From assembly GCA_016285645.1 (NCBI GenBank), contig JAEERC010000027.1:62001-126000 (forward strand): 64,000 nucleotides of DNA, written 5' to 3'. The notes beneath the pieces were generated by a model. The model made no database searches and was not told the origin of the DNA. It was given only the letters and a program-made list of their open reading frames with translations. The position numbers and the translations under genes are program-made. Position 1 is the first letter of the stretch. Each line of letters begins with the position of its first letter. This DNA is from Clostridiaceae bacterium (GTDB lineage Bacteria > Bacillota > Clostridia > Oscillospirales > Acutalibacteraceae). Positions 1-50,684 of this stretch are shown piece by piece.

Positions 1-1150
1 CTTCGGGAATGATTATCTCCTCAGTCGGGCAGTTATAAAACGCCGCGAAGCCGATGGATGTTACACAGCCGTCGTCGGGAATAACGCTGTTTTTGCAGCC
101 GGCAACAAGAGTTTTGCTCTGTGTTTCGATAAGGCAGTCGCCCTCCGAATGATAGACGGTATTGTCTTCGGACACGGCGATTGTTTCAAGTCCTGAACAG
201 GCGGCGAAAGCGTAACTGCCGATTTTTGTGACGCTCGCGGGAATATCGAGATAGGTAAGCCCTATGCAGTTTGAGAAAGCGCCGTTGCCGATAGTTGTAA
301 TGCCGTCGGGTATGGCGATGCCCGCAAGACCCGCGCACAGATAAAAGGCGTAATCGCCTATGGAGGTTACGCTGCCGTCGGTCGGGATAACGCTTTTTCT
401 GCAGCCCGCGACAAGCTTTTTGCTCTCTGTTTCTATAATGCAGTTTCCGTCCGAATGATAGACGGTGTTGTCTTCGGAGACGGTTATGCTTGTAAGGCCG
501 TCGCAGCCGCCGAACGCCGCGCTGCCGATGCTTGTAATGCAGTCGGGAATAACAACGCTTTTAATGTCGCTCAAACCGAGGAAGGCGTTCGCTCCTATGG
601 CGGTCACGCTGCCGTCGGTCGGGATAACGCTGCCCGTACAGCCCGCGACGATTTTCGCGCCCGCAGTTTCGATAATGCAGTTTCCGTCCGAATAATATGC
701 GGTGTTGTCCTCGGAAACGGTCATACTCTCAATGCCCGTGCAGTAAGCAAAAGCGGAATCGCCTATACTTTTCACGCCCGCGGGAATCAGGACCGCTTCA
801 AGCCCCGTGCAGCGGCAGAAGGCGGAATCGCCTATTTCGGTGACGCTGTCGGGTATTGTGACGCTCACAATATCGGCGCAGTTGTAAAACGCCTCTTTGC
901 CTATGGCGGTAACGGGGTATTTGTCGAGTGTGTCGGGTATTACGAGGTTTGCGGGAACCGCGCCGTCATAACCCGTTACGGTGGCTTTGCCGTGGCTCAA
1001 TGTGTAGGTGAAGGCCTCGTTTTCATCCGCGGAAGCCCTGACACTTACAGCGTTCAGCACCCGCGCAAGCGAACTGCCGCCCGCCGCGACGGTGCCCGCG
1101 ACAAGCACGGCGCACAAAATAAGCGATACGATTTTTTTGCTGAGTTTCAT
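1..1150 (-). CDS. BspA-type LRR surface protein, C-terminus cut by window edge
   Basis: The reading frame is open from an ATG at 1148-1150 to the window edge (about 383 residues seen). A GGGGA ribosome site lies 11 bases before the ATG. The N-terminus has a lysine start and a hydrophobic stretch (LILCAVLVAGTVAAGG), a likely signal peptide. The rest is tandem BspA/LRR_5 repeats of the type IGxxAFxxCxxLxSVxIPxxVT, interrupted by three copies of a 38-residue insert beginning SEDNTxYxSxGNCIIET. Family knowledge: such proteins are exported and linked to adhesion or surface sensing in gut Firmicutes and Bacteroidetes. It is the last visible gene of the run starting at 8330, 32 bases after the WYL regulator. 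Ligand and anchoring cannot be judged because the C-terminus is missing. Confidence 0.9.
   Translation of the reverse strand, partial: MKLSKKIVSLILCAVLVAGTVAAGGSSLARVLNAVSVRASADENEAFTYTLSHGKATVTGYDGAVPANLVIPDTLDKYPVTAIGKEAFYNCADIVSVTIPDSVTEIGDSAFCRCTGLEAVLIPAGVKSIGDSAFAYCTGIESMTVSEDNTAYYSDGNCIIETAGAKIVAGCTGSVIPTDGSVTAIGANAFLGLSDIKSVVIPDCITSIGSAAFGGCDGLTSITVSEDNTVYHSDGNCIIETESKKLVAGCRKSVIPTDGSVTSIGDYAFYLCAGLAGIAIPDGITTIGNGAFSNCIGLTYLDIPASVTKIGSYAFAACSGLETIAVSEDNTVYHSEGDCLIETQSKTLVAGCKNSVIPDDGCVTSIGFAAFYNCPTEEIIIPE
60..715 (-). repeat. Three copies of a 113-bp coding module inside the LRR gene
   Basis: Near-identical modules lie at 60-172, 366-478 and 603-715. Each holds a conserved block such as CCGTCCGAATGATAGACGG (447-465). 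Start-to-start spacing is 306 and 237 bases, so the modules are separated by different numbers of LRR units. They encode the recurring 38-residue insert. The DNA-level identity suggests recent internal duplication or gene conversion; the repeats stay in frame. Confidence 0.85.
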
Positions 1151-1182
1151 CTGTTTTGTCTCCCCAATCAAAATTTTTTAAT

Positions 1183-2175
1183 TTATTTGTATTGAGCAAG
1201 AATGCTCTCTATATGGGCTTTGTAGGCGTCGGCAACGCCGGAGGGCGCGGTGATTTTCATCTTGCTGCCGAAATTCGACACCCAGCCGAAGAACAAATCA
1301 CTCACGGCTACCTTGACCATAACGGTAAAGTACCCGTCCTCGGAAGGCGCCATAATGATATCCCTGCCGAAACGGTCGATTATAACGCCGGCGAGTGTGT
1401 TGTCACAGCGCAGTGTGACGGTTTCCTCCTCGCCGTGATACATTGAGAAAAGCCCGCGGGAATAGTAGCCGCTCTTTTCTTTTTCCTTATATATTTTTTC
1501 TCCCAGGCGTTTCACGCCTTCGAGAACCGTGACGCTCTGCATTTTATCAACGCGGAAATGCTTTATTATATCCGCTTCGGCGTCATAGGCGGCGAGATAG
1601 TAGTTCTCGTCGTCGCGGATAAGCGCCCAGGGGCTTACGCGGTAGAGCATACCGTTTTTGCGCTCAACCTTTTTTCGCTGCGGAGTCCATTCGTAGTATT
1701 TGAAAGTGATATCGCAGTTATTGTTAATCGCGGAGAAGATTCCGTCAACGGTGTAAAAGATGTTTTCATTTTCACTCTTTATACGGTTTAAAACCTTGAC
1801 ATCGCGGGTGAGTTCCTGCGCCTCAAAACCGCTCGCGAGGGCGGTTATTTTTTCAATAAGCCCCCTCGTCTTTTTCGCGGTTATGAATTTTGAAGACTGC
1901 ACCGCGTCAACGAGCAGTTTGAGCTCCGCCAGGTCAAACTCGCGCGAGAGAAGCTTGTATCTGCAACCGTTTTCACGGGTCATCTCAATATCCAGCCCGT
2001 AATCCTGAAGGGCTCTTATATCGCTGTAGATGCTTTTTCGCTCGGCGGTTATGTTGTTTTTCTCAAGCATACTTATAATATCGGGCACGGTCACGCCGTG
2101 GTTTTCGTCGGTTTCCTTTCGGAGCATATCCGCTATATAAAGCAGTTTGAGTTTCTGGTTTTCACTTTTCGGCAT
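1183..2175 (-). CDS. WYL-domain transcriptional regulator (HTH-WYL-WCX)
   Basis: A 330-residue protein. Residues 1-75 form a winged helix-turn-helix of the YafY/DeoR type (RKSIYSDIRALQDYG). The middle is a WYL domain with PWALIRDDENYYLAAYD followed by FRVDKM. The C-terminus (FFGWVSNFGSKMKI) fits the WCX extension. WYL domains of this class sense a ligand, often a nucleotide or nucleic acid, and control neighbouring genes. The start is the ATG at 2175 with a GGGGTAAC ribosome site. It sits 18 bases after the metallophosphoesterase at 2194 and 32 before the LRR gene, so it is probably co-transcribed with the phosphoesterase operon and is its candidate regulator. The ligand is unknown. Confidence 0.9.
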   Translation of the reverse strand: MPKSENQKLKLLYIADMLRKETDENHGVTVPDIISMLEKNNITAERKSIYSDIRALQDYGLDIEMTRENGCRYKLLSREFDLAELKLLVDAVQSSKFITAKKTRGLIEKITALASGFEAQELTRDVKVLNRIKSENENIFYTVDGIFSAINNNCDITFKYYEWTPQRKKVERKNGMLYRVSPWALIRDDENYYLAAYDAEADIIKHFRVDKMQSVTVLEGVKRLGEKIYKEKEKSGYYSRGLFSMYHGEEETVTLRCDNTLAGVIIDRFGRDIIMAPSEDGYFTVMVKVAVSDLFFGWVSNFGSKMKITAPSGVADAYKAHIESILAQYK

Positions 2176-2193
2176 ACTGTTACCCCGTGATTG

Positions 2194-3534
2194 TTATTTA
2201 AGCTGAATGGTCGCGTTGTTGTCGGAGAAGGGCTTTGTGCTTCCGATTGAATCGAAAATCATCCGTTTCAAATCGAGCGGCTTGTTTTTTGAAAGCTTCG
2301 GCTCGACTTTTTTAATGATGAAGTTTGCCCTGTTGACAACCTTTGAAACGGCTTCATATTCCTTTGTGCCCTCAACATACGGCTCATCGCCCTTGAAGAG
2401 GTTTATGCCTATTTCATTCGCGAAATCGAGGAATTTTTTCTTTTTTAAGGATTTGTCAATTCTCACGCAGGCAAGGCGCGCCACTCCCCCGAGAGTAAGG
2501 GAATTTACTACCTTTTTTGCGAGAGGCATATAGAGTTTCTGCGCCCCCTTCGGATTTTCAAGGGCGCGGTTTATGCGGTTTGTGATTCTGCGGCTGAACT
2601 GGCGGTCGAGGTATTCCTCCTTGGTAAGTCCTTCCAAATCCCATTCAAAATCGGGAATCTCAAACGACTCAATCCGGGCTGTCGCGCCGTCGAAGGCGAT
2701 TTTACGGTATCTGCCGGGGCTTCCCACAATCGAGCTTGTGCAGACATCCCAGAACTTGTTGCCTTTTTCCGTGGTGACAACATTTATGCTCTGGATATGC
2801 ATATGACCGGTGAGTATAAGATTTACGCCGCTGTCGGCGAGGAGATTTATGACCTCCTCCCTGTTTTCGAGGCGGGCGTCTTTTACTATCTCAAAGAAGG
2901 GAGAGGACGGAATGACGGGATAGTGGCAGATTGCGAACATCTCGTCGCCGCACGCCTTCGCGTCTTCAATCTGTTCCTTCGCCCAGGCGAGGATATCCGA
3001 GTTTATATAGCCCTTGTCGCCGCCCTGCGAGAGGTCTGTTTCGCCGTCGGAATCGAGGGCGAGCATACGGTAACCGGGTGCTATCTGCGCAACATAGGAC
3101 ATTGAGCCGGGGTGCCTTGAAAGAGCGGCGGAGTAACCGTAGTCCTTGTAAAGTTCTGCCAGTTCCTCTTTCTTTGTGCCCTCGACGGGGTTCCTCGCGC
3201 CGTTTATGAAGGCGGAGGCGTTTTCGTTGAAATCGTGGCGGGCGGTTATGACAAAAATCTTTTTGCCGCTGTCTCTGAGTTTATCGAGATATTTTATAAA
3301 CTCCAGGTGGCTCTCCTTTTCGCCGTTCTTTGAAAGATCGCCCGGGATGATGACAATATCCGTTTCCTTATCCCCGGCTATCTTTTCGAACAGGGCTTTG
3401 AGTATCGCCTCGTTTTCGGCGAGAGTCATCTGTTCGTATTTCATATATTCGCGGTAGTCCTCACAGTCCTCGCAAAGACGGTTCGGAATAAAATGAGTGT
3501 CGGTAATCAAATAAAAGTTTACAGGATTGTTCAT
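2194..3534 (-). CDS. Calcineurin-like metallophosphoesterase with altered GNHD motif
   Basis: 446 residues, no signal peptide. The N-terminal half carries metallophosphoesterase motifs: LITDTHF (DxH), IIPGDLSKNG (GD), ICHYPVIP and LTGHMHI (GHxH). The usual GNH[DE] motif reads ARHD (about residue 99), so the metal-binding Asn is replaced by Arg. The C-terminal third has no motif I recognise. The start ATG at 3534 has an AAGGGGAG ribosome site overlapping the stop codon of the upstream PHP gene, which argues for translational coupling. Family members act on cyclic nucleotides, phosphoproteins or nucleotides; the substrate cannot be told, and the motif change raises doubt about ordinary two-metal catalysis. 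Confidence 0.87.
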   Translation of the reverse strand: MNNPVNFYLITDTHFIPNRLCEDCEDYREYMKYEQMTLAENEAILKALFEKIAGDKETDIVIIPGDLSKNGEKESHLEFIKYLDKLRDSGKKIFVITARHDFNENASAFINGARNPVEGTKKEELAELYKDYGYSAALSRHPGSMSYVAQIAPGYRMLALDSDGETDLSQGGDKGYINSDILAWAKEQIEDAKACGDEMFAICHYPVIPSSPFFEIVKDARLENREEVINLLADSGVNLILTGHMHIQSINVVTTEKGNKFWDVCTSSIVGSPGRYRKIAFDGATARIESFEIPDFEWDLEGLTKEEYLDRQFSRRITNRINRALENPKGAQKLYMPLAKKVVNSLTLGGVARLACVRIDKSLKKKKFLDFANEIGINLFKGDEPYVEGTKEYEAVSKVVNRANFIIKKVEPKLSKNKPLDLKRMIFDSIGSTKPFSDNNATIQLK

Positions 3535-3544
3535 ACGGCTCCCC

Positions 3545-5092
3545 TTAAATGGTTTTGAAAAATCTGAATATCACGCCGAACCAGTTGTTGAATTCCGCTA
3601 CAAGGAAATCGAGAACGCCGAAATCGAAAAAGCCCGGATCAACGATTTTTACGGCGGAAGGCGTACCGCCCGAAATGATGAACGGCTGGGTGTAGATTAT
3701 GCCGCCCTCACCGAAGATTTCGGCGCGCACATAAGAGCCGGGTTTGCCCGAATAATCCGCGAGGCGGAAAGTCGCGTCATCGCTTCTTGTTGTGGCGATA
3801 AGCTCGCCGTCCGAAATCCAGCGCACAAGCAGGGAATCGGAGGAATCGATTGTAATTGTTCCCGCGGTACTGTCAACGGTAATATTGTCAATATACGGGA
3901 AGGTGTCGGCGCTGAAATAGCCCTCGTCGTCGAGGACTTTGTATGTAATGCCGATGTGGGTGTCGGAGTCAAGCTCGCCGCTGTCGATTTTCGCTACCTT
4001 TTCCGCCATCTGAGTCGCTGCGGATTTTACGGAATTGTAAAGCTCGGTTTCGCCGTAGAATTCCTTTAAGGAAGCGGCTATCTGCGTAAGCTCGTCGGGG
4101 TTGCCTATGCAGTGGCTCGCGCCGAAAAACTCGCCGTTGAGCAGAGCGTTTGAAAGCGCCTTTGACGACATTTCGGGCAGAAGCGCTATAACAAAGCCCG
4201 TGTCGATTTTATCAAGCTGGTGGGCGTCGCTCGAGCAGATGGCGAAAATGTTTTTGCCGTTCGGGGCGAAGCGTGTGAGAAGCCTGTCCCACAGAATGCG
4301 GTCAAAACGGGTTCTGTCGTCGCCCTTAGAGTTCATATCTATACCTATGCATCTGTCATACTGATTGAGGAGATTCGCGAATTTATTTACAAAATACCAA
4401 TAGTTGAAATTATCCGTATTGTAGGCGTCGGAGGAATGGATTTCGTAGCGCGCCTTTGTGTATTCGCCCGGGTGGTTTATTACGCACACGCCGCCCAGAG
4501 CGTTCACATTTTTAATCGCGTCCTTATATGTGGTGACAAAGTTGTTGTGATAATCGACAAACCAGCTGCACACATGGGCGTTTACGGACACGGCGTTCTG
4601 CTCAATACCGTAGGGCACGCGCATTATCTTTGTGTCACCGTCAACAACAAGGTAATCATCGCCGTTTTGTTCGGTAAGCTCATAGCTCATTCCGTTTTCG
4701 AATGTGCCTGATTTTCCGAGATATTCGAGTTCGCCTTTGGATTTGCCAACAAGGCTGAGCGCACCGTGAATGAGTTCGTTCGGGTGGGGCTCGTCCCAGC
4801 CGTAATCGACCGTACCGTGGTCGGAAACGGTTACAATGTCAAAGCCGCACTCAACATGGCGCTCGATTGACTGCTTCAATGTGGGGCTGCCGTCGGAGGC
4901 GTTTGTGTGGTTGTGAAGCCCGGTTTTGTACCTGCCGATTGAGTCAAAATCGACATTTTCATAGGGGTTTATAATTGTATAACCGGAGGATGCTTCGTTT
5001 TTACTCTTTTCGGCTGACACGCCCGGAAGCACCATACACATAATAAGCAGGGCGGCGAGGGCGAGAGCCGTGATTTTAAGAAGTTTTTTCAT
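3545..5092 (-). CDS. Exported PHP-domain phosphoesterase-like protein
   Basis: 515 residues. Residues 1-27 are a signal peptide (KKLLKITALALAALL, cleavage near VSA). A PHP domain follows: HNH at 60-62, an Asp at 67, SDHG at 90-93, VINHPGEY near 205 and SSDAHQ near 290, the set of His/Asp ligands for a trinuclear metal site. The C-terminal 100 residues resemble a beta-sandwich. The protein ends in an aromatic amphipathic tail (FNNWFGVIFRFFKTI). PHP proteins hydrolyse phosphoesters such as histidinol phosphate or short nucleic acids; an exported form with this tail is less usual. The start ATG is preceded by AAAAGAGGAATT. It lies 25 bases after the upstream phosphatase and 10 before the next gene. 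Confidence 0.87.
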   Translation of the reverse strand: MKKLLKITALALAALLIMCMVLPGVSAEKSKNEASSGYTIINPYENVDFDSIGRYKTGLHNHTNASDGSPTLKQSIERHVECGFDIVTVSDHGTVDYGWDEPHPNELIHGALSLVGKSKGELEYLGKSGTFENGMSYELTEQNGDDYLVVDGDTKIMRVPYGIEQNAVSVNAHVCSWFVDYHNNFVTTYKDAIKNVNALGGVCVINHPGEYTKARYEIHSSDAYNTDNFNYWYFVNKFANLLNQYDRCIGIDMNSKGDDRTRFDRILWDRLLTRFAPNGKNIFAICSSDAHQLDKIDTGFVIALLPEMSSKALSNALLNGEFFGASHCIGNPDELTQIAASLKEFYGETELYNSVKSAATQMAEKVAKIDSGELDSDTHIGITYKVLDDEGYFSADTFPYIDNITVDSTAGTITIDSSDSLLVRWISDGELIATTRSDDATFRLADYSGKPGSYVRAEIFGEGGIIYTQPFIISGGTPSAVKIVDPGFFDFGVLDFLVAEFNNWFGVIFRFFKTI

Positions 5093-5117
5093 AATTCCTC
5101 TTTTCAGCGGTCAATAA

Positions 5118-6614
5118 TCAGAATGTGTCCTGTGTGATAACAACATAGAGAATATACGGAAGGTCAATAAGGAATTTCGGCAGCCATTCGCCGAAGGCGT
5201 AAACTGTGAGGCAGAGGAAGGAGGGAACAAGACTGAGATAATACTCGAACTCGCTCGTTGTGTTGTCGCCCGAGAAGGTCGCCTTGTTTTTGCCCGTTTC
5301 CTTTGTGACGGAGAAAGAGTCAATTTCATTGACCTCGCCCGTTTCGTCACAGCGGATATAGGATTTAACCGTGAGAGTGCCGCCGTCAACGGTAACGGTG
5401 TTGAAGCAGCCGCCGATGTTGGTGTCCTTAGTGCTGTTCCAGTCCTCACCGTTCCAGTAGTTCGCGTAGCCGTTTTTCTGGATTGTGAGCGCGTCAATGA
5501 AACCGGTGTTGAGATAGAAGCCCGCGAGGAACTCCCTTATTTCATATCTCTTTGTGCCGGCCGTGCCCGAAAGAACATAGGTCACGCCGTTTTTCTCATC
5601 CACTCTGTTGTTTGTAAGGGGCTTTGTGCGAAGATACATATGGTCGTGCCCTGACATAACGAGGTCAACATCGCACATATCGAAAACCTTGGTGAGCGAT
5701 TTGCCGAGGTAGAGGGCGTCGGGCCATTTGCCGTCCTTGCCGAGGGTGTAGGGTGACTTGTGCATAAAGGCGATTTTCCAGTCCTTCGAGGTGGAGTTCA
5801 TATCGTTTTTGAGCCACTGCATCTGCGCGAGAGTCATGCACATCATATCGTTTGTGTTGAGCACGGCGATATGGGCGTTGCCGTAATCGAAGGAATAGTT
5901 TACGCCGTCGTTTACCTGCACGCTCTCGGAAGTGTCGAGGTTGAACATATTGTTAAACCAGTGCTCTACGCCGAAGCCGTCGTGGTTGCCGGCAACGGGC
6001 ACTGTTGTTGTGCTCTGATTGATTTTACCGAACGCGGTGTCGTAGCAGTTCCACTCCTCGTTGGTCGAGTCGTTTGTGAAGTCGCCGCAGTTTACAATGA
6101 ATTCCGCTTCGGGGAGAGTTTCAAACGCGGCGTCAACCGTGAGAGCCGCCTTCAGGAAATTTTCAAGCGGGGTTGCCTGAACATCGGCGATTTCAATAAA
6201 TGAAAACGAACTGTCGCCGTCGTCGGTTACAAAGGTGCCGTAATCGCTGAAGGTTTCGCCGTCGCCTACACGGTACTGATAAGTTTCGCCCGCGGAAAGT
6301 CCGCTGACGGTGACTTTATGGGCATAATAACCTTCCCATTCAAAAGAGGACGCTTCGCACTGGGCGTTGACCGCCGAGCCGGAGGCGTCGGTTATTTCCA
6401 CAACGGAATCGCAGTCCTCGGCAGTGTACCAGCAGAATCCCCTCTGAGTCTGAGAATCGCCGTTCATCGAAACGGAAATTCTGAAGGGAGTTTTGCCTTC
6501 GGGCTCAATGGGTTTTACTTCGCCGTCGTCGGCAAAGGTCGATGTGCCGGACACGGTAAACAGAAGTGTCAGGCAGAGAAGCACGGCGAGTACTGCGCGT
6601 ATTGTTTTTTTCAT
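5118..6614 (-). CDS. Exported purple-acid-phosphatase-like metallophosphoesterase
   Basis: 498 residues. Residues 1-28 are a signal peptide. Residues about 40-131 form the fibronectin-like N-terminal domain of purple acid phosphatases (ending TYQYRVGD). The catalytic domain has IADVQ (142-146), NCGD (175-178), AGNHD (208-212), MHKSPYT (His285) and SGHDHMYLRT (GHDH at 322-325), all intact. A strongly hydrophobic segment near residues 455-490 may anchor it to the membrane. Family reaction: hydrolysis of phosphomonoesters or diesters outside the cytoplasm. The start ATG has a CGGAGG ribosome site. It is the second gene of the left-end operon, 24 bases after the first, and looks like a diverged relative of that gene. 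Confidence 0.9.
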   Translation of the reverse strand: MKKTIRAVLAVLLCLTLLFTVSGTSTFADDGEVKPIEPEGKTPFRISVSMNGDSQTQRGFCWYTAEDCDSVVEITDASGSAVNAQCEASSFEWEGYYAHKVTVSGLSAGETYQYRVGDGETFSDYGTFVTDDGDSSFSFIEIADVQATPLENFLKAALTVDAAFETLPEAEFIVNCGDFTNDSTNEEWNCYDTAFGKINQSTTTVPVAGNHDGFGVEHWFNNMFNLDTSESVQVNDGVNYSFDYGNAHIAVLNTNDMMCMTLAQMQWLKNDMNSTSKDWKIAFMHKSPYTLGKDGKWPDALYLGKSLTKVFDMCDVDLVMSGHDHMYLRTKPLTNNRVDEKNGVTYVLSGTAGTKRYEIREFLAGFYLNTGFIDALTIQKNGYANYWNGEDWNSTKDTNIGGCFNTVTVDGGTLTVKSYIRCDETGEVNEIDSFSVTKETGKNKATFSGDNTTSEFEYYLSLVPSFLCLTVYAFGEWLPKFLIDLPYILYVVITQDTF

Positions 6615-6638
6615 TGTTTTTATCCTCCGTCGTTTTTA

Positions 6639-8267
6639 TTATTCGGGCTGCTTAGAAAGCGGTTTGTCCTCGGAAGGAGTATTCCAGTTGACAAAGCCGT
6701 TTTCCTTTGCGTAATACCAGCTCATTCCGAAAATCTTCGCGCTTTCCTCTGTCGGAATGTATAACTGGTGATTGTTCATATAAACTTTTCCGCTCATTTT
6801 CACATTGCCTTTGTCCGTACGGGCTGTGTCGCTGCCCTCCTCGAACACGGCTCTGTGACCGTACGCCTCAACCGTGACCCTGCCCTTTTCCTTGAGAACG
6901 GCCGCTCCGATTGACTGGCACACGACGGCGAAGGGAGCGTACCACACGCCGTCCTTTTCCTCGGGGGCGAGCCCTCTGGCGGAGAGCTCGAGCATTCTGC
7001 CCTTGAAGGTCATTTTTATTCTGTCGTATCTCGGCGCGAGAGCGTAAGGCGTTATCAGATCTTTTTCTTTATCTATGGTGAAGATGTCAACGATTCTGCC
7101 GTCGAGCATATACGCCGTGATGGTTGTTTTGCTTTTCTCAACCTCGGCTACGCAGTAGAGAGGCGTGCGCTCCTCCTGCGGGAAAAAGCAGGAGTGCCAT
7201 ACCTTCTGGGCGTTCGAGTGATAGATGTTGCCGCCCGCGTTGCCCGCTATATAGTGAACCGTACCCTGCGAGGGTCTGTCAAAAAGTTCGTCGCCCTTAA
7301 TGGGGAAGGTGCGTGCGAAGGAGTGCTCGTGCCCTTCAAACAGGATATCGAGTTCCTCAACCGCCTTGCGCAGCCAGGGATAGCCGTCGTCATTCTGCCC
7401 CTCGGGCATAACGGGATAAATCGGAAAATGATAGGAGCCGAACTTCCAGGTTTTGCCGCTGGATTTTATATCATCGCAGGCCCAGTCGGCAACCTGCTCC
7501 GGGGCGTTTATGCCCATAACCGTAAAATGGGCGTTGCCGTAATCGAAGGAGTAGTTTTCGGTTTCATAGTCCGCGGGGCCGTTTTTCGGGTAGGAATACT
7601 CGAACTGCGCGTCAAAGAAATCCGCGTGCTCAAGATAGAACTTGCCCGTCGGCTCGGGGAAGTATGTGAGAAAGCCGCGGTTGTCGTGGTTGCCCGTGGT
7701 CATCATATATGGGACGCTCTCGATCACGCCCTTGCCTCCGCTGAACATTCCGTTCCACTGCAGGTCGTTCTGACCGTTGTCGCAGTTGTCGCCCGCGGTG
7801 AAGATGAATCTGATGTCGGGATGCTCCGAGAGGGCTTTTTTCAAGACCTTGTTGAAAACGGAGTAGTCGGGCAGGTGAACGGGATCGCCCTTCTGATGGT
7901 CGGTGATTATGAGGAACTTGAATTTTTGCAGGCTTTCCGGCTCGGTCTCAAACGAGAATTCCCCGCTTCTGTTTTTTTCATCGCCGACGGTGTAGGTGTA
8001 TTTTGTGCCGGGAGTCAGATTCTTCATAACCGCCCAGTGGTAACAGCTTCTGTCAATGTCGGAGTAAATCACCTTGCTTATCGCGTCGGTTCTTTTTGTC
8101 TGACTGCCGTCGGAATACTCAATGTATCCCTCCGTTACCGCCTCATCCGTGCGCCAGGACACGCACATTGAGGTATGAGGGTCGCCGCAGAAGCTTAAAA
8201 ATATGTGGTCGGGAGCCGCCGTTGAGCCGCGTTCGGGCTTGTAAAAATTGCCGTTTTCGTCTGTCAA
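6639..8267 (-). CDS. Purple-acid-phosphatase-like protein with C-terminal stalk-like domain, TTG start
   Basis: I place the start at TTG 8265-8267, 8 bases after AAGGGGGA, giving 542 residues. The longer open frame begins at a TTG that is itself the -35 box of the promoter. Motifs: a fibronectin-like N-terminal part (TSMCVSWRTDEAV, TKYTYTVGD), IITDHQ, TAGDNCDN, TTGNHDNRG and FEGHEHSFART, so the metal site is complete. The last 120 residues (APFAVVCQSIGAAVLKEKG, YIPTEESAKIFG) resemble the copper-amine-oxidase N-terminal or stalk domain seen in secreted clostridial proteins. Unlike its neighbour it shows no clear signal peptide from the chosen start, which conflicts with that domain. It is the first gene of the operon. 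Confidence 0.88.
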   Translation of the reverse strand: MTDENGNFYKPERGSTAAPDHIFLSFCGDPHTSMCVSWRTDEAVTEGYIEYSDGSQTKRTDAISKVIYSDIDRSCYHWAVMKNLTPGTKYTYTVGDEKNRSGEFSFETEPESLQKFKFLIITDHQKGDPVHLPDYSVFNKVLKKALSEHPDIRFIFTAGDNCDNGQNDLQWNGMFSGGKGVIESVPYMMTTGNHDNRGFLTYFPEPTGKFYLEHADFFDAQFEYSYPKNGPADYETENYSFDYGNAHFTVMGINAPEQVADWACDDIKSSGKTWKFGSYHFPIYPVMPEGQNDDGYPWLRKAVEELDILFEGHEHSFARTFPIKGDELFDRPSQGTVHYIAGNAGGNIYHSNAQKVWHSCFFPQEERTPLYCVAEVEKSKTTITAYMLDGRIVDIFTIDKEKDLITPYALAPRYDRIKMTFKGRMLELSARGLAPEEKDGVWYAPFAVVCQSIGAAVLKEKGRVTVEAYGHRAVFEEGSDTARTDKGNVKMSGKVYMNNHQLYIPTEESAKIFGMSWYYAKENGFVNWNTPSEDKPLSKQPE

Positions 8268-8301
8268 GCCGATATTCCCCCTTATTATAAATAACAAATT
8301 A

Positions 8302-8330
8302 ATTTTAATCTTTTTTATATTTATTGTCAA
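8302..8330 (-). promoter_or_regulatory. Promoter of the phosphoesterase operon
   Basis: On the minus strand TTGACA (8330-8325), a 17-base spacer and TAAAAT (8307-8302), in AT-rich DNA 35 bases before the TTG start. The only strong promoter I see for the minus-strand run down to position 1. Confidence 0.85.
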
Positions 8331-8374: not shown

Positions 8375-8404
8375 TTGACAATCAGACGGCGCAGTGTTTA
8401 TAAT
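8375..8404 (+). promoter_or_regulatory. Consensus promoter for the second LRR gene
   Basis: TTGACA (8375-8380), 18-base spacer, TATAAT (8399-8404), followed by a GGGGGA ribosome site and the ATG at 8430. Divergent from the promoter at 8302-8330; the two -35 boxes are 44 bases apart. Confidence 0.9.
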
Positions 8405-8429: not shown

Positions 8430-10016
8430 ATGAAACTCGCGAAAAAAATCACTCCGCTGTTTCTTACACTTTTAGCGCTTTTGTTCGCCATCCCCGTAGG
8501 GGCATCGGCGGCTTCGAGCGAGGACCTTACGGTTGTAAACGGTAAAATAACCGCCTGCAATCCTTCGGCTGAAGGCAGCCTTGTGATTCCCGAAATCATA
8601 AACGGCACGACTGTTACGGCAATCGGCAAAGAGGCGTTCAAAAACTGCAGCGGTCTGCTTTCGGTCACAATTCCCGACACCGTTACGATAATCGACAGAA
8701 ACGCGTTTATCGGCTGCACAAACATCAAAAGCGTAAAATTCAACGGCACGGATGTCACTCTCGCGGATCGCGTCTTTTTTGAGTGCGTGTCGCTCACAAC
8801 CGTCACCCTGCCGTCGGAACTCAAAACAATAGGCGATTATGATTTTTCCGGCTGCTCCTCGCTTAATTCAATTGTTTTACCCGACACGCTGACAACAATC
8901 GGCAAAAACGCCTTTGAGGGCTGCGCCATGCAGAATGTGAACATTCCCGCTTCGGTCACATCAATAGGCGAGAACGCGTTCGCGGGTTGCGGCAATGTTA
9001 AGGCGTACAGCGTTGACGAGGCGAACACGAGTTATAAGAGCGACGCCGCCAAGGCGCTGTTCAACTATGAAATGACAAAGCTCATCTACTTCCCCGCCGC
9101 CTCAACTAAAACGGATTACACGCTCCCCGAAACCGTTGAGGAAATAGGCGAACTCGCCTTTTCGAAAAACGCTGAAATTCAGACGGTCACGGCGTCCTCC
9201 TCTCTTAAGAAAATCGACGCCTACGCCTTTTCGGAATGCTCGGGACTTTTAAGCGTAACGCTCAACGAGGGGCTTGAGGAAATAGGAAACCTCGCGTTCA
9301 ACAGATGCGACCAACTCTATGAAATCACCGTTCCCTCAACCGTAACATCATACAATTCCGCTTTTTACGCGAGCGGCATACAAAAGGCGGTTATCTCGCA
9401 GGGAGTTGAAGTGATAGACCGGGGCGCGTTTGACACTTGCAAGAAACTCGAAGAGGTGACGATCCCCTCATCGGTAACTAAAATAAAGCAGGGTGCTTTC
9501 GCCAACTGCGAATCGCTCACAATCCTGACCGTTCCCGCCACGGTGACAGAGATTGACAAGACCGCGTTTTTCGGAATAAAAGACAACATCACGCTCATTG
9601 TTGAGGCGGGTTCCCCCACCCTTACCTACGCGCGTGAAAACTCAATTAAATACACCGTTCCCGGCAGCACGAAGGCATCCATAGCCATAAAGAACTCGAC
9701 CGGGGCAAAGACTGTAAACTACGGTGAAACGCTCGTTATGGAAGCCGTTGTTACAAACGCGGGCGAGGGTGATTTGATTAAATGGACCGCCTCCGACGGC
9801 ACAAGCTCAACGGAAAAGGAGTTCTCCGTATCGCCCGTAAGCGGCAAAGTCACCGTGACCGTTTCGGTTGTTGACGAGGACGGCAATGTGAAAATCGACG
9901 AAAACGGAAATGAGGTTTCCGCGAAGATAGAGGTCTCGGTCAACTCGGGAATTTTCAAAAAGATTATCTCGTTTTTCAAAAATCTGTTCCGTATGGACAG
10001 AAGAGTATGGCTGTAA
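8430..10016 (+). CDS. BspA-type LRR surface protein
   Basis: 528 residues. Residues 1-26 form a signal peptide (LFLTLLALLFAIPVGASA). Residues about 40-390 are LRR_5 repeats (IGKEAFKNCSGLLSVTIPD and variants). Residues about 400-500 form a likely Ig-like or bacterial adhesion domain (NYGETLVMEAVVTN, GKVTVTVSVVDEDGN). The last 23 residues (GIFKKIISFFKNLF and a basic end) are an amphipathic aromatic tail. No sortase motif is seen. Family knowledge places such proteins outside the cell. It has its own consensus promoter and a strong terminator, so it is a single-gene unit divergent from the phosphoesterase operon. It lacks the 38-residue insert of the LRR protein at 1-1150. Confidence 0.9.
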   Translation: MKLAKKITPLFLTLLALLFAIPVGASAASSEDLTVVNGKITACNPSAEGSLVIPEIINGTTVTAIGKEAFKNCSGLLSVTIPDTVTIIDRNAFIGCTNIKSVKFNGTDVTLADRVFFECVSLTTVTLPSELKTIGDYDFSGCSSLNSIVLPDTLTTIGKNAFEGCAMQNVNIPASVTSIGENAFAGCGNVKAYSVDEANTSYKSDAAKALFNYEMTKLIYFPAASTKTDYTLPETVEEIGELAFSKNAEIQTVTASSSLKKIDAYAFSECSGLLSVTLNEGLEEIGNLAFNRCDQLYEITVPSTVTSYNSAFYASGIQKAVISQGVEVIDRGAFDTCKKLEEVTIPSSVTKIKQGAFANCESLTILTVPATVTEIDKTAFFGIKDNITLIVEAGSPTLTYARENSIKYTVPGSTKASIAIKNSTGAKTVNYGETLVMEAVVTNAGEGDLIKWTASDGTSSTEKEFSVSPVSGKVTVTVSVVDEDGNVKIDENGNEVSAKIEVSVNSGIFKKIISFFKNLFRMDRRVWL

Positions 10017-21487: not shown

Positions 21488-23230
21488 TTATTCTTTGTTC
21501 GCCTTTGCGAGAACATCCTTGACAACGGGAGCGTCGGTTGCGACCTGTGAGAAGAAGAACTGCTCCCTCTCCTCGTTGTTGATGACCGTTACGGGCTTTA
21601 TCTGGTTGAGAACAACGCCCTTGTCGGCGAGATACTTATTATAAGCGACATAGGCGCCTTCCTTGAGGAAGAGAACCTCGGGTCTGCCGAGCATACCCCA
21701 GCGGCGGTACTTATAATATTTCTCGTTAATGCCGTCCATGGCATTGTCGAGCGCCTGAATGAGCGCCTCTCTGTTTTCCTCGCTCGCCTCGCCCTTCTTG
21801 AGTTCTATGAGAAGAGTATATCTGGGCGGCTTGGTTGTGAAATCGGGATAGAAGCTGAAGCCCTGATACTCAACGCCGACTTCCTTGGTAATCTGGTCAA
21901 CGGCGGCGTCGGTCATATCGGTTGTGGTCTTCTCATTGGCAACGTTCATTGAAAGGTTCTGTCTGAAGCAGAGTTTGATACGCGGAGTGTTATTATACAT
22001 ACCGGTAACAACAATGACGTCTTCCATCTTGTATCTGTAAAGACCGGAGAAGTTTGAAACTATCATTTCATACATCTTGCCGACCTCGAGTTCGTTGAGA
22101 AGGAGAGGTCTTACGGAATCGTCCGCCTTCTCCTCGTCCTCCTCGATGGGAAGGAACTCGAAGAATACGGTGTAGGGAATGGCTACATAGTCCTCAACAT
22201 CAAGCTCCATGGGAGTTGCGAAGTAGCCTTCCGCCGCGGCATAGCCCATGCGGTGAATCGGAACATCGGGGCCGATTGCCTTGCGGAGTTTTTCGGCGTA
22301 AATGGCGAGGTTCGAACTCATCATACCGTATGCCCACTGAAGGTTGGGCCAGATGCGGGGAGCGATGGGATCGTCAAAGCCCTTTTCGAACTCTCTGCGC
22401 AGTTCGGCGGCTCTTTCGGGGTTGGGCTTGAACTTTTTGGCATATTTCTTGCGGAACTCTTCGGTGCAGTCGATATTGGGGTTGATAATACCCTTTTCTA
22501 TATCGTCGCAGAGCATTTCCCAGTTGTCCTCAAGATAGTCAAACATCTGGGTAAGAAGGGTTACGACTATTGAACCGAGATATGTGACCTTCTTGTTTTC
22601 AAGGCAGAAACGAAGGTGTAAATAGGATGTGTCGAATTTGTCGTCAAGGCTGGGGAAAAGCAGCGGGATGGGAGATGTGCAGAAAAACGGAAGAATGGGC
22701 TTTAACATACGAAGCGGAATCTGCGCCGCGCCGTTGCTCATTTTGCCGTCCGCTGTTTTGTGACCGGAAAGGTTGAGCGCGAGAGGTCCGAGCTGACCTT
22801 TAAGGCGCTTGCCCTGCTTTTTAAGGTGATGGTAAGCGGTTGTGACCGAAACGGAGAAACCGATGCACTGCATCTTCCACAGGTCGTTTAAGCCCTTGGG
22901 AAGCATTTTCGGCTTGCCTACCGAGCCCGAGGATGACGCGTAGCGGAGGTTTAAACCGTTGAACATAAGGCGCTTTTCGCCGTTGTTCATCATACGGTCA
23001 ACATAGGGCTCATAGTCCGCGTAGGTTGAAAGCGGAACCTTATCCTGATACTCCTTGATGGAGTGGATATCCTTGAGACCTAATTTTTTGCCGAGTTCAC
23101 AATTTTTGTTTCTTCTGACAATCTTTTTGAGTACATTGTTCTGTGCCTTGAGCGGGTTCTTGGTGGTGTGGATAATCTGCTGACGGGAGACCTCACCGAG
23201 AAGCACACCGAGGTCGGAAAATGATGCCAT
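21488..23230 (-). CDS. GH3-family acyl-adenylating enzyme
   Basis: 580 residues. The adenylate-forming signature is YASSSGSVGKPKMLP (about 96-110). WAYGMMSSNLAIYAEKL, GYAAAEGYFA, LELEVGKMYEMIVSNFSGL and YRYKMEDVIVVTG follow the order seen in the GH3 auxin-conjugating family of plants. Plant members join amino acids to acyl acids such as jasmonate or indole acetate through an acyl-adenylate; bacterial members are widespread but mostly uncharacterised. No membrane segment or signal peptide. The gene stands alone with its own terminator, so context gives no substrate. A clear sigma-A promoter is not visible in 23231-23277. Confidence 0.9.
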   Translation of the reverse strand: MASFSDLGVLLGEVSRQQIIHTTKNPLKAQNNVLKKIVRRNKNCELGKKLGLKDIHSIKEYQDKVPLSTYADYEPYVDRMMNNGEKRLMFNGLNLRYASSSGSVGKPKMLPKGLNDLWKMQCIGFSVSVTTAYHHLKKQGKRLKGQLGPLALNLSGHKTADGKMSNGAAQIPLRMLKPILPFFCTSPIPLLFPSLDDKFDTSYLHLRFCLENKKVTYLGSIVVTLLTQMFDYLEDNWEMLCDDIEKGIINPNIDCTEEFRKKYAKKFKPNPERAAELRREFEKGFDDPIAPRIWPNLQWAYGMMSSNLAIYAEKLRKAIGPDVPIHRMGYAAAEGYFATPMELDVEDYVAIPYTVFFEFLPIEEDEEKADDSVRPLLLNELEVGKMYEMIVSNFSGLYRYKMEDVIVVTGMYNNTPRIKLCFRQNLSMNVANEKTTTDMTDAAVDQITKEVGVEYQGFSFYPDFTTKPPRYTLLIELKKGEASEENREALIQALDNAMDGINEKYYKYRRWGMLGRPEVLFLKEGAYVAYNKYLADKGVVLNQIKPVTVINNEEREQFFFSQVATDAPVVKDVLAKANKE

Positions 23231-47238: not shown

Positions 47239-49944
47239 TCAGTGCCTTCCGCCGCAGACGCGGAACGAATAACTGTTGCGCAGGGCGTAGGAGCTTACCT
47301 TTGAAACCGTTTTGTCGCAGCATATCTGCGCGCTTGTGTTCTCAATTATATCGTCGCCTATATTCGAAACAGTTGAGGGAATGTGAACATATTTGAGCGA
47401 CGCGCAGGATGAAAACGCGTAGGAGCCGATTGTTGAAACGGACGAGGGAAGAATTACCGCCGCAAGCGATGTGCAGCCGCCGAAAGCTCCCTGACCGATA
47501 ACCGTTACGGAATTGGGAATATTCACGCTCTTGAGAGCCGAACAGCCGCTGAACGCGCCCTCACCCACGGAGCCGACGCTCGACGGAATGTCGAATGTTT
47601 CAAGCCCGCTTCCTGCGAACGCGCCCTTGGGAATGGATTTTACACCGTAGGGCAGAAGCAGGGATTTGAGCGAGAAGCAGTTTTTGAAGCAGTAATCGCC
47701 GATTGAAGTGAGCGTGGGCGGAAGTGTGAACTGGGATATTGTTTCACAGTCCGCGAAGGCGTAGTTGCCGATTGAGGTGAGGTTGACCGGCAGTGCTATG
47801 GCGGCGAGCGATTTACAGCCGCTGAAGGTGTACTGACCTATCTGCGTAACGGCGCTGTTCAGATTTACATTTATAAGCGCGGAGCAGTCCTTGAAAGCGC
47901 CGTCGCCGAGAATCGATACGGACACGGGAATGTTTATGCCCCTGAGAGTTGTGCAGCCCATAAAGGCGTTGCTGCCTATTGCCATAAGTGATTCGGGAAG
48001 CGAGACGGACTGAACGGATGTGAAGCCCGCGAAGGCGCTGTTGCCTATATCGGTAACGCCGTCCTCAACGGTGATGACTCTGACATCCTTTGCGATTGAT
48101 TCCCATTCGGGAACATTGTCGGCGGACCAGGTGCCTGTTTTTTCGTCGATTATCCAGCCCTTCATCCTGCCCGAGCCCCTGATTATGAGCTCGCCCGTGC
48201 CGGTATATGCCCAGGTAAGGGTGTCGCCGCAGCTGCCCTGTGACAGCGCGTCTTCAACAAGAGTGGTTGACTCTGAGGCGGGCGCCTGATCACCGCCCGA
48301 TTCGGCGGCGGAGCTGTGGTCGGAGTTGCAGACCTTGAAATCCACCAGCCAGTTCGCGGCGTTCTGCCTTGCGGGGGAATCCGCCGAGTCACTGCACACA
48401 TACGCGTGCGGACAGTTTTTGATAACATCCGCTCCGAAATGGGACACGCTCGAAGGAATGTGCAGGTATTCGAGAGCAAGGCAGTTTTCAAACGCGCTCA
48501 TTCCGACGGTTGTTACGGAGGACGGCAGAATGCAGTTTTCAAGTTTCGAACAGCCGTAAAACGCGTAAGAACCGATGGTTTTGAGGGTGGAGGGAAGTTC
48601 CGCCTTCGCGAGAGCCGTGCAGCCGTAGAAAGCCCTGCTTCCGATGCTCTCGACACCCTCATCTATGCTGATTATATTTATTTTGCTGTATTCGGAATGC
48701 CAGGGCGTGTCAACATAATTGCCGTAGTCATCCATATGCCCTTTGCCGCTTATTGAAAGCACGCCTTCGGAGTTGAGCGACCATACGAGATTTTCACCGC
48801 ATTGTCCGTTGTCAACAACTCTTCCCTTTGTCAGAACATAGAATACCGCGCCCACAATTCCCGCTATGAGCAGCGCCGCTGTAACAAGAGTGACAATGAG
48901 GGGCTTTTTGCTCTTTTTCGTTGCCGGGGAAGGAACCGGAGCCGGCTCGGGTTCCTCTTCCGGCTCGGGCTCGAACGGAACATCGCATTCGGGGTCTGTG
49001 AGCTGGCGGAAGAAATCGTCCGTGTTCTGGGTTCTGTGCTCGGGATTTACGACCAGGGCGCGCATAATGGCGTGCTCCGCGTATTCGGGCAGGTCAACAC
49101 CCAACTCCGACGGAGGGGCGAGGGCGTCCTGTACCTCTCGCTCAAGACTCTCCTGCGGAACAACACCCGTGAGCATTCTGTAGAGAGTGGCAGCGCAGGC
49201 GTAAACATCCGTCCACGGGCCCTGAGCGGCGTTTGTGAAATACTGCTCCTTGGGGGCGTAACCCCTTTTGAGTATAACCGAAAGACTCTTGCGGTCGTCA
49301 TTGAAAGCGGTCACACGCGCGGCGCCGAAATCTATGAGGCGCACAGTGCCGTCGGTGCATATGAATATATTGTCGGGGGAAATATCGCGGTGGATGATTT
49401 TGCTGTCGTGTATCTGGTAAAGCGCGTTTAAAATGGGCGACATTATGCCGAGCGCCTCGTCAAACGAATAACTGCCGTGCTCTTTCAGTTCCTCCTTGAG
49501 CGTTCTTCCCTCGAGGTATTCCATTATTATATATACGGTTCCGTTTGCCTCAACGCAGTTATATACATCCACAACACCTTCAAGACTGTTGAACCTTGCT
49601 AAAGTGTTGCTCTCGTCAACGGTTTTCTGCATGCCGGCGCGGAATTTTTCGCCGCTTTCTTTATTATATGCGGCGACATTGTCCTGACCGGGCACGCGAT
49701 AGGCGAAAACTCCGGGAAGGTATTCCTTTATGGCGACAGTTCTGCCTATAAGACTGTCCCACGCGATATAGGTTATTCCGAAGCCGCCGCTGCCCAGTGC
49801 CTTGCCTATAAGATATCTGCCGGCTACCATTGTGCCGGGCTTTAAATAGTTGCTGTGCGTTACGGGGGTGTCTTTGACATATCCGCAGTGCGGGCAGGTG
49901 TCGGTGTCGGGAGTGTACTCCCTCATGCATCCCATACATCTCAT
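47239..49944 (-). CDS. Transmembrane Ser/Thr protein kinase with LRR ectodomain
   Basis: 901 residues. Zinc ribbon at the N-terminus (Cys3, Cys6, Cys17, Cys20). Kinase domain 43-315: glycine loop LGSGGFG (50-56), Lys73 in VAIKEY, HRDISPDN (185-192) where Hanks kinases usually have HRDLKPEN, DFG (205-207), GYAPKEQY activation segment. A Pro/Glu-rich linker (323-340) leads to one transmembrane helix (349-371). Residues about 377-901 are exported BspA-type LRR units in two blocks around a Ser/Ala linker. A receptor-kinase plan with the kinase inside and repeats outside. Starts within the stop of the PP2C gene (ATGA overlap). Confidence 0.93.
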   Translation of the reverse strand: MRCMGCMREYTPDTDTCPHCGYVKDTPVTHSNYLKPGTMVAGRYLIGKALGSGGFGITYIAWDSLIGRTVAIKEYLPGVFAYRVPGQDNVAAYNKESGEKFRAGMQKTVDESNTLARFNSLEGVVDVYNCVEANGTVYIIMEYLEGRTLKEELKEHGSYSFDEALGIMSPILNALYQIHDSKIIHRDISPDNIFICTDGTVRLIDFGAARVTAFNDDRKSLSVILKRGYAPKEQYFTNAAQGPWTDVYACAATLYRMLTGVVPQESLEREVQDALAPPSELGVDLPEYAEHAIMRALVVNPEHRTQNTDDFFRQLTDPECDVPFEPEPEEEPEPAPVPSPATKKSKKPLIVTLVTAALLIAGIVGAVFYVLTKGRVVDNGQCGENLVWSLNSEGVLSISGKGHMDDYGNYVDTPWHSEYSKINIISIDEGVESIGSRAFYGCTALAKAELPSTLKTIGSYAFYGCSKLENCILPSSVTTVGMSAFENCLALEYLHIPSSVSHFGADVIKNCPHAYVCSDSADSPARQNAANWLVDFKVCNSDHSSAAESGGDQAPASESTTLVEDALSQGSCGDTLTWAYTGTGELIIRGSGRMKGWIIDEKTGTWSADNVPEWESIAKDVRVITVEDGVTDIGNSAFAGFTSVQSVSLPESLMAIGSNAFMGCTTLRGINIPVSVSILGDGAFKDCSALINVNLNSAVTQIGQYTFSGCKSLAAIALPVNLTSIGNYAFADCETISQFTLPPTLTSIGDYCFKNCFSLKSLLLPYGVKSIPKGAFAGSGLETFDIPSSVGSVGEGAFSGCSALKSVNIPNSVTVIGQGAFGGCTSLAAVILPSSVSTIGSYAFSSCASLKYVHIPSTVSNIGDDIIENTSAQICCDKTVSKVSSYALRNSYSFRVCGGRH

Positions 49945-50684
49945 TTAAGCGTTACCCCCTTTCCCGTGAATACGGCGATTGCCGTGTAATTGTCCGTCTG
50001 TCTGCCTCTGCCCGCCCTTTCAACACGGCGGGTCATAAGTTCGAGCCACTGCTCCGCGTTTTTGCTCCACTTAAGGCACCGGAGCATTGTTTTTTCATCT
50101 ATAAGTTCCCAGAAGCCGTCCGTGCATAGAAGAAAGGCGGAATAGTTCTTTACGGTTTTCTCCCTGACCGGATCGTAATCCGCCGGCTCATCCGAAACAG
50201 CCAGGCACCGCAGAAGTTTGTTGCGGTCGGGATGGTTTCTTATTTCGTCTTTTGTTATTTCGCCTGTTTTTACAAGCATTTCTGGCACGGAGTGGTCGTC
50301 CGTGAAAAGCTCGGCTTTTTCGGGAGTGAAACCGTACAGTCTCGAGTCGCCGATATGGGTGAAACTGATTTTCTTTGAATCCGCTACAGCCGAAACAACG
50401 GTTGTTTTCATAAGTTCCAGCACGGAGCTTTCACCCGCGAGGCGTCTGAACTCCTCAGCGCATTTTTTGAACGCGCTCTCAAAAAAGGCGGAGGGCTTGC
50501 CGTCGTAATCTTCGAATGTATCTTTGAACACCTCCGAAGCGGTTTGGGAAGCGACCTCGCCCTTGGCGTGACCGCCCAGGCCGTCGCAGACGGTGAAGCA
50601 GTACGAGCCGCCTTTTTTACTTATACTGTAACTGTCCTCATTGAGCGGTCTGCCGCCCTGACGCGAAATAACAGCGTAGTCCAT
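49941..50684 (-). CDS. PP2C-family protein phosphatase
   Basis: 247 residues. Metal-binding Asp residues: Asp17 (LNEDSY), Asp35 (VCDGLGGHAKGE), Asp190 (LLCTDGFWEL) and Asp232 (TDNYTAIAVF). GDSRLYGF (113-120) is the usual central motif. Predicted to remove phosphate from Ser/Thr and to oppose the kinase encoded next, with which it overlaps by 4 bases. Cytoplasmic, no membrane segment. Its 74-base upstream gap is shared with the divergent small gene at 50759. Confidence 0.95.
   Translation of the reverse strand: MDYAVISRQGGRPLNEDSYSISKKGGSYCFTVCDGLGGHAKGEVASQTASEVFKDTFEDYDGKPSAFFESAFKKCAEEFRRLAGESSVLELMKTTVVSAVADSKKISFTHIGDSRLYGFTPEKAELFTDDHSVPEMLVKTGEITKDEIRNHPDRNKLLRCLAVSDEPADYDPVREKTVKNYSAFLLCTDGFWELIDEKTMLRCLKWSKNAEQWLELMTRRVERAGRGRQTDNYTAIAVFTGKGVTLK

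Follow-up and report, generated by a model that had tools for sequence, protein, structure and literature searches.

A clade-restricted cluster of four predicted metallophosphoesterases, two apparently exported and two apparently cytosolic, in a genus of Clostridia

The 64,000-nucleotide stretch of DNA analysed here (the window) corresponds to C41:62001-126000 of a 2.63-Mb draft genome. Six minus-strand open reading frames run from position 8267 downward and encode, in this order, the phosphoesterase-like proteins PAP1, PAP2, PHP and MPP4, a WYL regulator and the BspA-type leucine-rich repeat (LRR) protein LRR6; they are separated by 24, 25, 10, 18 and 11 bases, respectively. The initial annotation described six same-strand genes of these families behind one promoter, the first beginning at 8330. 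The families are supported by Pfam, NCBIfam and fold comparison, with all intergenic gaps at 10-25 bases. The TTG at 8330 is instead the -35 hexamer of a promoter-like site (TTGACA-17-TAAAAT, 8302..8330, minus strand) and orthologues begin at the same residues as a PAP1 read from 8267, so the TTG at 8267 is most likely its start. A loose promoter pattern of the same type lies upstream of 24 of the 26 PAP1 orthologues. This site could be shared by the whole gene row, but further promoter-like sites lie within PHP (~3876-3849) and within WYL (~1406-1379), so that a single transcript for the six genes remains a proposal. A search of six loci with Rfam at gathering scores gave no riboswitch, and a single tRNA in each of two of them.

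PAP1 (6639..8267, minus strand, 542 amino acids) and PAP2 (5118..6614, minus strand, 498 amino acids) both have a PAP N-domain (PF16656) and a calcineurin-like phosphoesterase domain (PF00149) over cut-off, and PAP1 has in addition a C-terminal domain like that of the copper amine oxidase N-terminus (PF07833). The D, GD, GNHD, H and GHxH motifs are kept in both proteins, the first D being missing in one aligned PAP1 sequence. Purple acid phosphatases have a tyrosine metal ligand in a GDxxY motif, and a DxG motif; that tyrosine is present in none of 29 aligned PAP1 and 30 aligned PAP2 sequences, which have D or N in its place. PAP2-like matches also lie within longer proteins in 38 of the 45 genus genomes sampled (the window's own, G000, included), 36 of them in frames of 1124-1237 amino acids, and 18 of those frames hold an MPP4-like match as well; the one such frame that was scanned has both MPP and PAP domains in a single polypeptide. 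The two domains are joined in one polypeptide at L113:7820-11266, and a gene of family c60 lies alongside the fusion in each of the four such loci fetched, its copy in L113 being a GH3 gene.

PHP (3545..5092, minus strand, 515 amino acids) resembles CehA-like metallohydrolases and carries a beta domain and a C-terminal helix. Its Pfam match is below cut-off, as is that to the NCBIfam CehA/McbA PHP metallohydrolase model NF038032 (46.2 of 80 bits), but NCBIfam and fold comparison agree on the PHP family: the closest matches of an AlphaFold model (mean pLDDT 82) are the PHP structures 3e38, 7rty and 2anu, and the motifs HxH, DH, NHP and DAH are conserved in nearly all of 55 aligned sequences. 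MPP4 (2194..3534, minus strand, 446 amino acids) aligns with Lmo2642 (PDB 2xmo) over 297 residues (E 4.2e-32). The motif of Class III, or Lmo2642-like, phosphodiesterases is given in PMC4320098 as D-x-H, GD, GNHD, H and GHxH. MPP4 keeps every element except GNHD, which is ARHD or AGHD (five each) in 10 of 10 close members; the asparagine is thus Arg in the five genomes that carry the cluster described below, Gly in five others, and either Gly or Thr in three members that are further removed. Because this asparagine is absent from all ten close members, MPP4 may be inactive or of other chemistry.

Among the four enzymes only PAP2 and PHP have a signal-peptide-like start. Over 15-residue stretches of the N-terminal part, the highest Kyte-Doolittle mean is 2.86 for PAP2 and 2.75 for PHP, against 0.93 for PAP1 and 0.38 for MPP4, neither of which has a hydrophobic N-terminus. 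PAP2 and PHP also have hydrophobic C-terminal tails, that of PAP2 being highly conserved. By these features PAP2 and PHP look to be outside the cell and PAP1 and MPP4 cytosolic. With no hydrophobic N-terminus on the other two enzymes, the locus would not be wholly the surface system first proposed for it.

The WYL regulator (1183..2175, minus strand, 330 amino acids) matches PF13280 (WYL, 41.3 bits) and PF25583 (WCX, 29.8 bits) over cut-off, and its N-terminus matches HTH_11 at 16.2 bits, under the cut-off of 25. It adjoins the phosphoesterases in all four clade genomes with an assembled flank, but is oriented with them in the window genome only and reversed in the other three, so it stands as a neighbour and less well as the operon member it was taken for. 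In these three (G007, G015 and G037) an ECF S-component gene lies 9-14 bases behind MPP4, and WYL comes next, facing the opposite way; in the window genome MPP4 is followed by WYL and LRR6, and the ECF gene faces them and points away from the cluster. In G039 the contig stops after MPP4. A 47-48% identical WYL homologue lies ~4 kb from PAP1 in a further genome, G019. The WYL protein may regulate the locus from next door, as a sensor; proposed WYL ligands are discussed in PMC4012209.

Only the N-terminal part of LRR6 lies in the window (1..1171, minus strand). The whole gene, L002:8100-11171 (G000:C41:60100-63171), has most of its length beyond the window and encodes an exported protein of 1023 amino acids with an N-terminal hydrophobic segment, LRR_5 repeats (3.2e-76) and Flg_new repeats. 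Behind the repeats is a region in which Cys, His and Asp-Asn are unchanged across all four aligned relatives, a pattern which we take to resemble a putative papain-like peptidase; the region has no Pfam match, and a weak PDB match (E 0.29) falls over the Ig-like part. The C-terminus has an Ig-like domain and an FFxxLF-type tail. LRR6 is not behind the cluster in G007, G015 or G037; at other sites, G007, G008, G014 and G037 contain sequences that match its second half over a long stretch, and its own genome has a second copy. At this place LRR6 is limited to the window lineage. About 3 kb beyond LRR6 is an operon of xpt and a Bmp-type ABC transporter (L002:1-5239), which is also found near the cluster flank in G007. 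A subtilase joined to BspA LRR repeats (L073:4714-8274) lies two genes from a PHP relative; as with LRR6, this may be a protease fused to LRRs.

A second LRR gene, LRRup (8430..10016, plus strand, 528 amino acids, LRR_5 6.5e-97), diverges from PAP1 behind its own promoter-like site (TTGACA-18-TATAAT, 8375-8404, plus strand). Its product would be exported: it has a hydrophobic N-terminus and an FFKNLF-type C-terminal tail, and both it and LRR6 have the LRR_5 repeats and N-terminal hydrophobic segment of BspA-type LRR proteins. A BspA-LRR gene lies directly upstream and divergent in 24 of 26 PAP1 orthologues, and we conclude from this comparison of loci that the divergent gene is the conserved surface partner of PAP1. 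The LRR gene that had been thought to close the operon is of the family named, but it is the one on the other side that accompanies PAP1. The C-terminal module of LRR6 (L002:8100-8430), an Ig-like domain plus tail, is common to loci L185-L200, for which 16 of 17 further places in the same genome were fetched. In all 16 stretches its end coincides with the stop codon or lies close to it; the module has tails such as V..GFFxxLIAFFxxLF or GFFDRLKAFF...TSIC and gives a weak PKD_3 match only; LRRup ends in a similar tail. The module may serve in C-terminal anchoring or sorting. Elsewhere in the window, a Ser/Thr kinase with a BspA-LRR part (47239-49944, minus strand) adjoins a PP2C-like phosphatase (49941-50684, minus strand), and the product of 21488-23230 (minus strand) is similar to the GH3 auxin-responsive (acyl-adenylating) family, all judged by eye.

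At the E-values set, and with paralogues included, matches to PAP1 were found in 40 of the 45 genus genomes, to PAP2 in 44, to PHP and MPP4 in 43 each and to WYL in 39. Closer copies are present in 26 genomes for PAP1 (at least 60% identity), 41 for PAP2 (at least 56%), 38 for PHP (at least 43%) and 19 for MPP4 (at least 48%). The four phosphoesterase genes stand together in five of the 45 (G000, G007, G015, G037 and G039), in the same order and 9-39 bases apart; the G007 copy of MPP4 is divided between two contigs. The relatives are 81-84% identical to the window in PAP1 and 66-68% in PHP. Trees of PAP1 (29 sequences), PAP2 (30) and PHP (33) place the five genomes on one branch with support of 99-100, G000 branching outside the other four, and because the five are related the cluster goes back to one event. 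The full set of six genes proposed as a unit occurs in the window's own genome alone among the 45 (the G039 flank is unassembled). Rarity of co-occurrence in relatives, named in the initial annotation as what would refute its system, thus largely applies to the six-gene set; the six genes with WYL and terminal LRR were rejected as a conserved unit, since WYL is reversed and LRR6 absent in three sister genomes.

In the other loci fetched, the four genes lie apart or in other pairs, each with recurrent partners of its own. Loci were fetched for all 26 genomes with PAP1 at 60% or above, for 29 of the 41 with PAP2 at 56% or above plus L102 of another genus, for the five of 14 MPP4 homologues at 48-52% that have a PHP nearby, and for 20 of 24 genomes with PHP outside the genus; L081-L084 were excluded from the neighbour counts, and one member of each partner family was scanned. 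PAP1 (21 non-cluster loci) is followed by a GH106-like gene in 17 and by a cut copy of one in another; of the remaining three, G008 and G036 have other genes there and G030 meets a contig end. PAP2 (25 non-cluster loci) has a c3 gene directly upstream in 16 and a GDPD-type gene within two genes in six; the scanned c3 member is an exported phosphoesterase with, by eye, an N-terminal hydrophobic stretch. For PHP (33 genus loci) the partners are an alpha/beta hydrolase (c4 or c40) in 18, c6 within three genes in 13, a GH43-like c11 gene two places off in 10 and c30 in six; c6, "propeller-like" by eye, and c30 are without a Pfam match.

The joining of these phosphoesterase families nevertheless recurs in other arrangements. 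In G008, PHP directly follows PAP2. Of the 14 other genomes with a 48-52% MPP4 homologue, five have a PHP-family match (E up to 1e-20) within 6 kb of it, and at four of these five loci GH38-type genes stand one or two positions away from MPP4. In four contigs PHP has a 28-30% MPP4 homologue on the opposite strand, three to five genes away. Across the wider family, 27 of 200 genomes have a close PHP, three of them of the same genus; the 20 fetched out-of-genus genomes contain no four-gene cluster, and among their loci there is one PAP2 two genes from PHP and one 28% MPP4 homologue four genes away. Glycosidases make up six of 48 gene families adjacent to the phosphoesterases (c0 and c1 among these 48 being assigned by BLAST) and none of 16 distant ones scanned of 20 sampled, an enrichment that is not significant (one-sided P = 0.16), and the window's own cluster contains none.

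Profile searches suggest that the genus has no Pst phosphate transporter. At 1e-10, all six genus genomes searched gave no match to PstS (TIGR02136), the same search being positive in 13 of 14 control genomes (eight over cut-off), and PstB (TIGR00972) is over cut-off in none of the 45 genus genomes versus 13 of 14 controls. Weaker PstB matches are present, up to 270 of 343 bits, but the best of them sits, by eye, between an amino-acid-type permease and a binding protein and so is not Pst. With neither component found, phosphate hunger is unlikely as the driver of this locus. The promoter before PAP1 does contain four hexamers spaced 11 bases apart, an array that resembles a PhoP box and would point to phosphate control; it scores 21 of 24 (P 0.001 at spacing 11, 0.005 over spacings 8-14), scored post hoc, after it had been seen by eye, against a Bacillus consensus. 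Sister promoters score 17-20 (P 0.01-0.47), and 19 non-cluster PAP1 promoters are no different from shuffles. The best spacing shifts to 12 when three hexamers replace four, and the array, strong in the window promoter only, was rejected as a phosphate-control signal.

Our tentative preference, which may well prove wrong, is that the cluster is a clade-specific two-compartment operon of four metallophosphoesterases which exploits the organic part of phosphorylated compounds. PAP2 and PHP would be exported, probably membrane-held by their hydrophobic C-terminal tails, and would remove or cleave the phosphate groups of phosphorylated organic compounds, among which glycans or glycoconjugates are the most likely; the glycan reading is suggested by the fixed glycosidase partners in relatives. 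The phosphorylated polymer put forward as substrate in the initial annotation thus has a place in this reading. The trimmed product would then be imported and the cytosolic PAP1 and MPP4 would complete the work; where an ECF gene stands behind MPP4, as in three sister genomes, its transporter may bring in a product. The two-compartment layout together with the missing Pst suggests that the purpose would be use of the organic part and not relief of phosphate hunger. The genus has these phosphoesterase genes in any case, and the cluster looks like their assembly within one lineage. A broader proposal, which we consider doubtful, is that this Pst-less genus of gut Clostridia repeatedly joins phosphoesterases of several families and glycosidases in changing modules, in which food glycans or cofactors would lose their phosphate first outside and then inside the cell, the window holding the most complete module and MPP4 being a phosphoesterase with a remodelled metal site.

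The exported enzymes might instead release a vitamin, cofactor or nucleoside from the phosphorylated form, with the ECF S-component or the nearby nucleoside ABC transporter importing it. The close spacing of the ECF gene behind MPP4 in three of three sisters with an assembled flank favours this salvage, as does the confinement of ECF matches of at least 67% to four of the 45 genomes, all cluster-bearing (others reach at most 39%); the xpt and Bmp-type operon near the cluster in the window genome and G007 points the same way, and nucleotides are the substrates of several proteins among the closest characterised relatives of PHP and MPP4 (RNase AM, SpdA, Lmo2642). We nevertheless think it unlikely, since in the window genome the ECF gene is directed away from the cluster, no substrate is stated for the ECF family TIGR04002 (itself matched below cut-off) and co-inheritance within one clade is little proof. 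Profiles also found no phosphoesterase in 20 other ECF neighbourhoods (19 of 63 places plus one, some contig-cut), and an ECF-phosphoesterase link as a general rule was rejected on this 0 of 20. The open-licence literature yielded no paper on these gene sets or on the ECF family.

It is rather unlikely that the four genes, although of related function, were simply united by rearrangement without a common pathway. Their separate partners in other genomes and the single origin of the cluster would fit such a loose gathering, but order and close spacing are kept in five diverged genomes and there are further links among the same families. Least probable is phosphate scavenging under phosphate limitation, to which the clustering of phosphoesterases, the box-like array in the window promoter and the analogous Flavobacterium loci described in PMC8115612 would lend themselves, but against which stand PstS not found in six genomes, PstB over cut-off in none of 45, the 19 non-cluster PAP1 promoters without an array and the two cytosolic-looking enzymes.

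The two-compartment use of organic phosphorylated compounds, if true, would show how rumen and gut Clostridia handle phosphorylated food molecules. These bacteria are without the outer-membrane glycan machines of Bacteroidetes. It would also offer the PAP-like, PHP and Lmo2642-like families, which are uncharacterised, a shared substrate that can be tested. The divergent LRR gene is the first LRR to test, and the WYL gene is not to be taken as a fixed part of the system.

The individual enzymes each depart somewhat from their known relatives. PAP1 and PAP2 are like purple acid phosphatases (PDB 3zk4, 6git, 1xzw and others) in their PAP N-domain and phosphoesterase domain, but besides lacking the GDxxY tyrosine they have DxQ where those enzymes have DxG, and PAP1 is by sequence without an export signal. 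PHP has its motifs in common with CehA/McbA-type proteins (BVU_3505, 3e38; TM0559, 2anu; RNase AM, 7ug9), its best fold match 3e38 being a two-domain PHP protein, but it scores under the NCBIfam cut-off and has the additional C-terminal helix. MPP4 differs from the Listeria cyclic-nucleotide phosphodiesterase Lmo2642 by ARHD for GNHD and in that no signal peptide is seen. Some relatives resemble polysaccharide utilisation loci in having glycosidases close to their phosphoesterases and surface proteins, but the window's own cluster, without a glycosidase, differs. The phosphate utilisation system (PUS) loci of Flavobacterium johnsoniae, as described in PMC8115612, combine a SusCD-like pair with phosphoesterases and are induced by low phosphate. 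As in the window, several phosphoesterases, one with PF00149, are clustered there with surface components. The window cluster differs in having two enzymes without an export signal, no Pst found and a weak box as the sole sign of phosphate control; it also has no SusCD pair, its proteins having other Pfam domains and no such pair being seen by eye among the flanking reading frames. Clustered phosphoesterase loci are already known as a kind, and the four-gene set described here is a variant of it.
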